A stretch of 64,000 bases of DNA from Lineolata rhizophorae (taxonomy: Eukaryota > Ascomycota > Dothideomycetes > Lineolatales > Lineolataceae), in NCBI GenBank assembly GCA_010093515.1, contig MU001671.1, positions 742,808 through 806,807 on the forward strand, given 5' to 3'. The notes beneath the pieces were generated by a model that saw only the letters and a list, made by a program, of their open reading frames with translations, did no database searches and was not told where the DNA came from. The position numbers and the translations under genes are program-made. The number at the start of each line of letters is the position of its first letter. The first letter of the stretch is position 1. Below, one piece after another: positions 11,429 through 14,756 of this stretch.

Positions 11429-14400
11429 TCAATCTATCTCGACGGCGATGCGAGTGCCCGAACGCGTCTCGAGCGCCCCGGCGTCCACATCCCACCCGGC
11501 GTCCTCGATGCGGCGCGCGAGCGCCGCGAACACGGCGTTCAACTCGCCCAGCGTCCGCCGTTCGAGCGCCAGCACGTCCAGGGCCGCTTCCCGCGTGCGC
11601 CTTCCCTTTCCAGGCCCTCCCCCTCCCCTCTCCCCTTCCTGCCCCCGCATTTCCTCCGCCGCCGTCTTGCCCTCTCCCCGCGCGCTCCTACCACTCCCGC
11701 CGCTCCTTCCTCCCTTCCTCCCCCCTGCCCACCACCACCACCCCGCCTTTCCTTCCGCCCTCTCCTCCTCCTCCTCCTCCTCCTCCTCCTCCTCCTCCTC
11801 CTCCTCCTCCTCTGCCGCCACCGCCCCCGCCACCAGCAGCGCGTGCGCCCACGCCTTGAGCTGCCCTCGCGGCCCGCTCCCCGCTTTGACCGCGATCAGC
11901 CCCGTCCGCGCCGCGCAGTCCCACCACAGCACGTACGGCTCGCGCGCGAAAGCCGCGAGCAGGCCCGCGAGATGCAGCGGCCGAGGAGGCCCCGTCGCCG
12001 CCGCCGTCTTCGTCGCCGCTGCCGGGTCGACACCGCCGCTGCTGGGTAGCCGTCGCACGAGCTCCGCTAGCGGCACGCCGATGCGCGCGTGGCCGAGGAC
12101 GCGCCCGTTGCTGCTGCTGCTGAGGCCGAACCAGCGGAGCACGCCGTCGGAGTCGAAGATGCGCTCGCGGCGGGCGACGGCGGCGGGGGAGAGGGCGGCG
12201 GGCACGGCGGCGGGAGGAGGAGCGGCTTCCGGGAGCAGGGTGTCGGTAAGCTGGCGCTGGCGGTGGAGCAGGGCGTCGAGCAGGTGCGAGAGGACGATGT
12301 TAGCGCGCTGGCGATTGAGGGAGCGCATCCGGACGGCGCGGACGGCGGCGTAGTTGGTGGCGAGGTGGATGGAGAGGAGCAGGGTGAGCGTGGTCCACGT
12401 GGCGAGCGGGGACGAGATGCGGGAGACGACTACGGTGCCGGCCTAGATGGTGGGGGAAGGGCGACGGGCACCCACCCCGTTCTCCCTCCGATTGGGGGAG
12501 AGGAAGGGGGGGTTTGGCCATGGAGTTAGATCACTGGTCTAGGTACTAGGTACGGTAGGGACGTAGATGGCTTCATGGTGTTCACGGGGCCAGCCGTTTT
12601 CTCTCCTCTCCTCTTTTGTCTCTTTTGACCCCGCGAGTGGGAGCGGACGGGGACGGAAGAGCCTTACCAGCATGCCCAAGAGAGATATTATGGTCTCTTG
12701 GCTCGAGTCTTTCTGTGGGTTTGAGACGGGTCCATCAGCTTATCGGAACGTCGCGGACACTAATATGGAGGTAGCGTGCACGAATGGCACCACCATCACA
12801 TCTTCCTCCTCTCTAGCAGACCGTTTGACCACAGGTAGCACTACCACTCCGCCGTCACACCCTCTCCCCAGACCCCCATTCCCCGCACCACTCGCTAGGC
12901 TGCCCAAACGGAAGCTTACGCAAGGGGAGCTGGCTAGCAGCCCACCATCCTGCCCATCTAGATGAGTCCAGAAGAGGGACCCCTGCAAGCCAGCGACCAG
13001 GGTTAGGGGTGCAGAAAGAGGCACGTCGCACGCTCTGAAGTCCTTCGCACCCGACAGAGAGCTTTCCCTCCCCAAAAGAAAGAAAGAGCCGGGGGGAGGG
13101 GAGGGCCAAGCCCTTTTCCCACACGTACCGCGTTCAGCTCGCCCAGATTCCCCGCGCGCGCAAAGTGCGCGCTCAGGCTAGCCTTGGCGCCGCCGGCCGC
13201 GACGCCGCACAGGGCGCGCAGCACGCCGGCGGCGGCCAGCAGGCCGACGCGCAGCGCCCGCCGCCCGGGCCGGGCGCAGGCGGCGCCCGACAGGCAGTCG
13301 AGCACCATGGCGACGTCGTTGAAGACGTCGGCGGCCAGGCGGTAGGTCTTGGCCTCGGGCGAGAGGGCGCCGCCGACGCGGTGCGCGAAGAAGACCGTCG
13401 CGAGCCGGCCAGCGGTGTCTTGGAGGACGGAGAGGAGGAGGGCGGCGGTGGCGGTGGCGGTGGGGTCGCCGACGCCGACGCCTGGGGTTGGTGGAGCCGG
13501 GGGAGGAGGGTGCGTGTTAGTTGCGGAGTGTAAAGAAGACGTGTAATTGCGAGTGGAAGGGTATGCGGTGTGCGTGAGGTTGCGTGTAGGTCGCGGTAGC
13601 GGTGGTAGTGGTGCGGGGGAAGGGGGGCGGCTGAGTGTTGCGGGACGTCATGGGTACAGCAAGGAGCTAGGCTAGTAGCCATGTACGTGCGGGCGGCTCG
13701 GTGGTGTGCGTGATTTTGAGCTACAAAGCGAATAATAATAACGTGATGGACGACAATGACGGAGGTGATGGCTTGGGAAGGAGGGCGAGGGGAGGGAGTA
13801 CATGCGAGTGCCAATTTGACTGATAGTGCCGAGTCTCATACGATGTGACGCCGCGCCTTGATGACTTGTATGTTTGTTTGCTCCAGGCGTCGTAGCACTC
13901 CGGAACTGAGACGAAATGAAATGGAGTGCAAGGTACTCTCGAGGCACGAAACAAGTTCATTAAGAGTACATATATGAATGACACAAAAATAAACGTTCTC
14001 GACTCACCTTCCAAAACGGCTCTGGACGCCAGCATCCCTGCAATCGAACTCGAGAATGCTTGCAGCGAGTCCTAATAAGTTAGCCTTGTTAAAGGTCACC
14101 GCGAAGCGCTAGGCACGTCCGAGATGGATGGATCGTCGCACATATATCTGGTATCTGCGGTTTTTTTTTGTTTCAACCAGGTCGTATAGACGTTAGCAAA
14201 AAGGACACACCAAGATGATGTGGTTCTTCGAACCGGATCCCCGGGGCAGCGCAGTAGGGAGCACCGAAAGCGAAAAGCGAAAAATGTCACGGGGACAGGA
14301 GTGGAACGGGGGTAGGACGGGCAACTCGACGCACTCGAGGTAGTCGTCTGTGACACTTTGCGGGTACCCCGCCGGCAGGAAGACTTCGAGGAGCTTCTGT

Positions 14401-14756
14401 ACCGCAGTCTTCGCGTTTTCCGGAGGCTGTGCCCGAGTTCGACGTCAGTTTGCTGATTGGTCCGGGGAGGGGCGGTCGGACGGGTCGGCCTTGATTGCGG
14501 CCGCGCGCTCCGGTTGTGTGCCGGCCGCACGGCAGATGGGGCGATGCATCGTGCACCTAGCCTTTGGAGCCCTAGCCGAGGAAAGAGGGGGCAGAGAGAG
14601 GGAGGGAGAGAGAGGGAGAGAGAGAGACGTCGGACTGACAATGATGTCCACCCGAACCTGCTCCCGCCCGCCTGACCCCTCGTTCTGCCGTGTTTGGGCG
14701 TACGTTGCAACGAGGGCGCCGGCCTCGTCAAACTCTTTGACGGTGACGTCGGTCAT
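11429..14756 (-). CDS. RUS1/DUF647 family protein, seven exons
   Basis: Seven exons join in phase into 565 residues: 14756-14640, 14426-14335, 14154-14142, 14071-14008, 13481-13129, 12712-12668 and 12442-11429. All introns are GT-AG. The family hallmarks appear in order: KLLEVFLPAGYPQSVTDDYL, EYQIYDSLQAFSSSIAGML, SLSAHFARAGNLGELNA, KDSSQETIISLLGML and HLATNYAAVRAVRMRSLNRQ. The RUS (root UVB sensitive) family is a conserved eukaryotic membrane-associated family. Its plant members act in UV-B and vitamin B6-related signalling; the fungal role is unknown. The third exon is only 13 nt and encodes most of EYQIY; the sixth is 45 nt. The C-terminal part carries a run of about 18 Glu coded by a (TCC)n tract on the plus strand, then a Trp/Gly/Arg-rich linker. 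The ATG at 14756 (MTDVTVKEFDEAG) fits the family N-terminus as I know it. Confidence 0.9.
11761..11812. repeat. (TCC)n microsatellite coding poly-Glu
   Basis: This is a nearly pure trinucleotide tract inside the last exon of the RUS1-like gene. Read on the minus strand it encodes a run of about 18 glutamates, so its length is likely to vary between strains without breaking the frame. Confidence 0.9.

Follow-up and report, generated by a model that had tools for sequence, protein, structure and literature searches.

A predicted 13-nt coding microexon with weak splice signals in the RUS1/DUF647 gene of Lineolata rhizophorae

The single RUS1/DUF647 gene that we found in the 30.97-Mb genome of Lineolata rhizophorae probably contains a true coding microexon of 13 nt, constitutive for the most part, whose two flanking introns would each be recognized singly, by intron definition. 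The gene lies on the minus strand of the window (the whole 64,000-nt stretch of DNA that was analyzed, C2:742808-806807). A genome-wide search with the profile PF04884 (UVB_sens_prot, RUS1/DUF647; 4 of 4 candidates scored) returned three matching places, all of them exons of this one gene. Our model of the gene comprises 1,698 nt (565 codons and a stop) with zero internal stops, and consists of the following exons, given here with the two introns next to the microexon:

14640-14756, minus strand: exon 1, 117 nt from the ATG; probable extent, placed by its GTCAGT donor and the frame; outside the Pfam match and the least certain exon
14335-14426, minus strand: exon 2, 92 nt, ending in phase 2 (..DYL GA) with CTCGA before GTGCGT; probable start, placed by a CAG acceptor and the frame
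14155-14334, minus strand: intron 2, 180 nt, GTGCGT..GCAG, preceding the microexon, its 3' splice site coming after an A9 tract
14142-14154, minus strand: predicted microexon, 13 nt, ATACCAGATATAT, supplying the last base of a Glu codon and then YQIY
14072-14141, minus strand: intron 3, 70 nt, GTGCGA..TTAG, following the microexon, with a weak donor
14008-14071, minus strand: exon 4, 64 nt, DSLQAFSSSIAGMLASRAVLE and the first base of the next codon, starting in phase 0 after TTATTAG
13129-13481, minus strand: exon 5, 353 nt, the PF04884 core
12668-12712, minus strand: exon 6, 45 nt, KDSSQETIISLLGML
11429-12442, minus strand: exon 7, 1,014 nt including the stop, of which Pfam covers the first part only

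The predicted protein matches PF04884 with 322 bits, against a cut-off of 28.3, over profile positions 2-239 of 241, and this is the sole match (residues 42-284) in a scan of the whole protein. It is also similar to PDB 9sdh_A, a RUS family member 1 of solved structure (E 2.5e-47), and by both measures it belongs to the family. No relatives were found in viral_contigs or genome_contigs, collections without a fungal set. Removal of exon 6 from the model lowers the score from 322 to 269.1 bits, a loss of 53 bits. The predicted 45-nt exon that the sequence-only reading had placed beside the microexon is thus well supported as an exon, although it is not the microexon's neighbor but lies three exons further on.

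Several other features of the gene can be described. Long introns combined with short exons are the reverse of the usual fungal layout, and introns of 526 nt (13482-14007, minus strand) and 416 nt (12713-13128, minus strand) share this gene with exons of 13 and 45 nt; the lengths of introns 1-6 are 213, 180, 70, 526, 416, and 225 nt. Past the Pfam domain, the last exon (11429-12442, minus strand) has codons for 17 consecutive glutamates, beginning at residue 439, together with low-complexity stretches. Introns 2, 3, and 4 open with similar ten-mers (GTGCGTCGAG, GTGCGACGAT, and GTGAGTCGAG, starting at 14334, 14141, and 14007 on the minus strand), a likeness that may be due to chance. Intron duplication was considered as a possible origin of these starts; compared by eye, introns 2 and 3 are unlike past the first ten bases, as are the ends of the preceding exons.

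The cassette ATACCAGATATAT occupies 14154-14142 on the minus strand, preceded by AAAACCGCAG, which ends in CAG, and followed by GTGCGACGAT, which opens with GTGCGA. These are exactly the 13 bases between AG and GT that had been picked out from the sequence, and they restore phase as claimed: exon 2 closes with GA, in phase 2, the A of the cassette completes a Glu codon, four codons follow, and exon 4 begins in phase 0, giving DYLE-YQIY-DSLQAF. Joining 14335 directly to 14071 does break the frame (LETRCKHSRV...), and the 155-residue piece produced by this join matches PF04884 over profile positions 2-30 only, with 29.5 bits. A 58-residue peptide taken from exon 2, the microexon, and exon 4 scores 76.9 bits, and its residues 4-58 fall on profile positions 2-56, so there is no net length change. 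With YQIY masked the same peptide scores 63.3 bits, which makes the four residues worth 13.6 bits, and with the cassette skipped in frame it scores 57.0 bits. Compared at the protein level, svtddyleyqiydslqaf aligns without gaps across the microexon to SVSPDYLPYQLWDSVQAF of 9sdh_A, with YQIY opposite YQLW; the conservation of YQIY in the family, asserted beforehand, is borne out by both comparisons. The cassette has several properties of a spliceosomal microexon, in that it is an internal segment below the limit of about 30 nt, is bounded by GT-AG introns (CAG / GTGCGA), fits the frame, and encodes conserved residues. We regard this predicted coding exon as real.

To compare other ways of joining the flanking exons, GT-AG joins between the exon 2 and exon 4 anchors were enumerated, with a minimum of 40 nt per intron and a maximum of 90 nt per cassette. 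There are 29 stop-free, in-frame joins, comprising four with a single intron and 25 with two, and the 13-nt model alone among them places exactly four residues between DYLE and DSL, which is the spacing of the family. Nine of the 29, the model included, were scored with Pfam. The model with the 13-mer scores 322.0 bits, and lengthening exon 2 by three residues, to 14326, while keeping this 13-mer gives 315.3 bits. The seven scored alternatives that do without the 13-nt cassette reach at most 307.7 bits each: 307.7, 307.1, 304.9, and 303.0 bits for cassettes of 6, 15, 31, and 19 nt, respectively, and 304.1, 301.6, and 290.6 bits for single-intron joins from 14319, 14331, and 14211. The 6-nt and 31-nt cassettes have the last six bases of the 13-mer in common.

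The single-intron joins embody an alternative in which there is no microexon: exon 2 would use a different in-frame donor to reach exon 4 directly (GTCGAG from 14331, for instance, or GTGTGT from 14211, which brings in a long insert), and the YQIY cassette would be coincidental. All four of these joins are stop-free and in frame, and U1 pairing of the donors at 14210 (-4.7) and 14330 (-2.0) beats that of the microexon donor (-0.4). However, the three that were scored lose 17.9 to 31.4 bits relative to the 322 bits of the model, and coincidence is a poor explanation of the peptide. The 263-nt interval was put through 100,000 dinucleotide shuffles, and 13-nt cassettes only were counted. An open, phase-fitting AG/GT cassette was present in 19,455 shuffles (19%), whereas a cassette encoding [YF]Q[LIVM][WYF] appeared once and one encoding the looser [YFWH][QEKR][LIVMF][WYFH] appeared 18 times, both motifs having been written with knowledge of the real peptide and of 9sdh. 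The fit of phase therefore proves little, and it is the peptide that carries the argument. We consider splicing without a microexon highly improbable.

The splice signals of the microexon itself are less clear. Seven places in the genome resemble U1 snRNA (C10:213723-213876, C29:277830-277985, C6:1239452-1239597, and four more), with E values from 8.1e-15 to 7.4e-12, all below the Rfam gathering score, 41 of 467 candidates having been scored; the 5' end of three of these U1-like sequences reads ATACTTACCT. Duplex energies with this U1 end are -1.3, -2.9, -0.4, -10.7, -7.0, and -8.5 kcal/mol for RUS1 donors 1-6, the weakest being that of the microexon's TAT/GTGCGA at -0.4 kcal/mol. Five of the six decoy GTs in the interval pair better with U1 than does the microexon donor (-0.6 to -4.7) and one pairs worse (+0.5), so U1 pairing alone does not pick GTGCGA. 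On the other side of the exon, the acceptor is preceded by nine A's and CCG instead of pyrimidines. Both flanking introns contain a match to the branch-site word GCTAAC:

14192-14197, minus strand: GCTAAC in intron 2, with its branch A 38 nt before the end of the intron; no AG comes between this site and the AG of the microexon acceptor
14079-14084, minus strand: GCTAAC in intron 3, with its branch A 8 nt before the end of the intron

Donor usage was examined across the whole genome with the pattern donor-N-GCTAAC-N{4,20}-YAG, at a donor-branch gap of 28-58 nt (near) or 228-258 nt (far), with the near pattern read backwards as a control; these counts include rows that pair one donor and branch site with two AGs. 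GTAAGT was found 234 times near and 32 times far, against 44 in the reversed control. The intron 2 donor, GTGCGT, was found 73 times near and 40 times far (the far count takes in the RUS1 exon 2 donor), against 32 reversed, and is used as a donor genome-wide. The intron 3 donor, GTGCGA, was found 39 times near (a count that takes in intron 3 itself) and 43 times far, against 57 reversed; judged by one branch-site word and one length band, it is not detectably used as a donor genome-wide, and a small use is possible. The splice-site evidence for the microexon is thus split, with the intron 2 donor in use and the intron 3 donor not detectably so. GTCGAG, which was run at intron distance only, shows no excess (58 vs 61 reversed), a further point against splicing from 14331 directly to exon 4. 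A local donor count at 253 strict branch-site ends was underpowered and gave 5 near and 4 far for GTGCGA, 5 and 5 for GTGCGT, and 13 and 2 for GTAAGT. A splice-site model self-trained on 264 kb was abandoned after drifting toward GC-rich non-introns.

What is new here is that the splice signals of the microexon, namely its donor and the A9 context of its acceptor, are weak. Together with the 38-nt distance from branch site to AG, the poor GTGCGA and the A9 3' site count against explaining these 13 bases as a mostly constitutive microexon. The sequence-only reading had called recognition of so small an exon a real question, a view strengthened by GTGCGA, which pairs worse with U1 than the other five donors and shows no detectable genome-wide excess.

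We think it likely that the 13-nt exon is recognized by intron definition, possibly assisted by PRP40. In intron definition the sites of one intron are paired with each other, and efficiency is said to follow intron length, not exon length (PMC8624252). The 180- and 70-nt introns, each with its GCTAAC, would be recognized separately across the intron, in which case the length of the exon would matter little. For intron 2, U1 at GTGCGT would be paired with the branch site and the first AG; for intron 3, U1 at GTGCGA would be paired in the same way with that intron's own branch site and AG. The two introns would probably be removed in turn, because U1 and U2/U2AF can hardly fit 13 nt apart. The weak GTGCGA donor is probably rescued by the shortness of its intron, the branch site, and a PRP40 bridge from U1 to the branch site. 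Yeast PRP40 is described as bridging U1 and the branch-site protein, and C. elegans microexons as needing PRP-40 with longer flanking introns and not with very short ones (PMC8378409); a candidate PRP40 in this genome is a gene with three FF-domain matches at C3:325135-325920. We speculate that, the donor being weak, the upstream intron may be removed first. For SRRM4-dependent human microexons, the account in PMC10250204 has the downstream intron mostly removed first and describes the donors as strong.

The same weak sites suggest a different reading, in which the microexon is real and is included inefficiently or conditionally; inclusion would then be regulated and, since skipped or retained products would be non-functional, would set RUS1 output. 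Skipping the microexon shifts the frame, and translation would then end at codon 194, ahead of the exon 5/6 junction (about codon 208) and with two exon junctions downstream, and retention of intron 2 or intron 3 leads to a stop at codon 117 or codon 85, respectively. These stops fit conditional inclusion, as do the weakest U1 pairing in the gene, the absence of a genome-wide GTGCGA excess, and the A9 tract before the 3' site. GCTAAC is, however, present in both flanking introns, and weak splice sites occur in constitutive exons too. A precedent for conditional use is the glucose-dependent 20-nt microexon described in Trichoderma (PMC11121469). We judge conditional inclusion of the RUS1 exon to be unlikely. 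Its development into an on/off valve, in which slow or conditional inclusion of the 13 nt sets the output of RUS1 protein and truncated, decay-prone transcripts arise otherwise, is decidedly doubtful; if true, the microexon would control a vitamin B6/UV-B-related gene in a fungus. We favor a mostly constitutive microexon recognized by intron definition, and infer its inclusion in the mRNA and its constitutive use from the sequence.

Fungal microexons are an already known kind of exon, and the rarity that had been ascribed to such small exons in fungi needs qualifying, as they are not unprecedented in the accounts given in PMC1184071, PMC11121469, and, for Tuber, PMC3689799. Xlr2 of Trichoderma virens is described as having a 20-nt microexon with glucose-dependent inclusion and RNA-seq support, which the JGI gene model missed (PMC11121469). 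The RUS1 exon resembles it in being a tiny internal coding exon of a filamentous fungus, with a length indivisible by three and a product that is part of a conserved domain, but is 13 nt long, lies in a different gene family, and is predicted from sequence. P450 genes of Phanerochaete chrysosporium, with exons as small as 6 bp (PMC1184071), likewise have very small coding exons among small introns; they represent another family in another fungus, with introns that are frequently 45-55 bp, whereas those of RUS1 are 70-526 nt. The NACHT-ANK genes of Tuber melanosporum, also an ascomycete, contain codon-sized microexons (Iotti et al., 2012, as cited in PMC3689799, PMC4986451, and PMC11121469). 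These are described as many, alternatively spliced, and proposed to serve diversification, in contrast to the single RUS1 exon in a conserved core. Microexons that depend on PRP-40 in C. elegans and mouse cells are, like the RUS1 exon, proposed to be too small for exon definition and to be spliced by intron definition (PMC8378409); those exons are metazoan, neuronal, and alternative, with PRP-40 dependence established by experiment, whereas a role for PRP40 at the fungal RUS1 gene is only proposed. In PMC3990503, on Cryptococcus, microexons are mentioned once, as a mapping option. A limited literature search found no paper that names DUF647 or ROOT UVB SENSITIVE together with a microexon.

Annotation easily loses exons of this kind, through a frameshift or an invented intron. 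If the RUS1 microexon is present in the mRNA, this 31-Mb fungal genome would supply a frame-keeping, family-conserved peptide from an exon of 13 nt whose 5' splice site is poor. Given a tiny exon, GCTAAC in both introns, and one weak donor, the locus would be a small testbed for intron definition, in which a minigene could separate what intron length, the branch site, and PRP40 each contribute.
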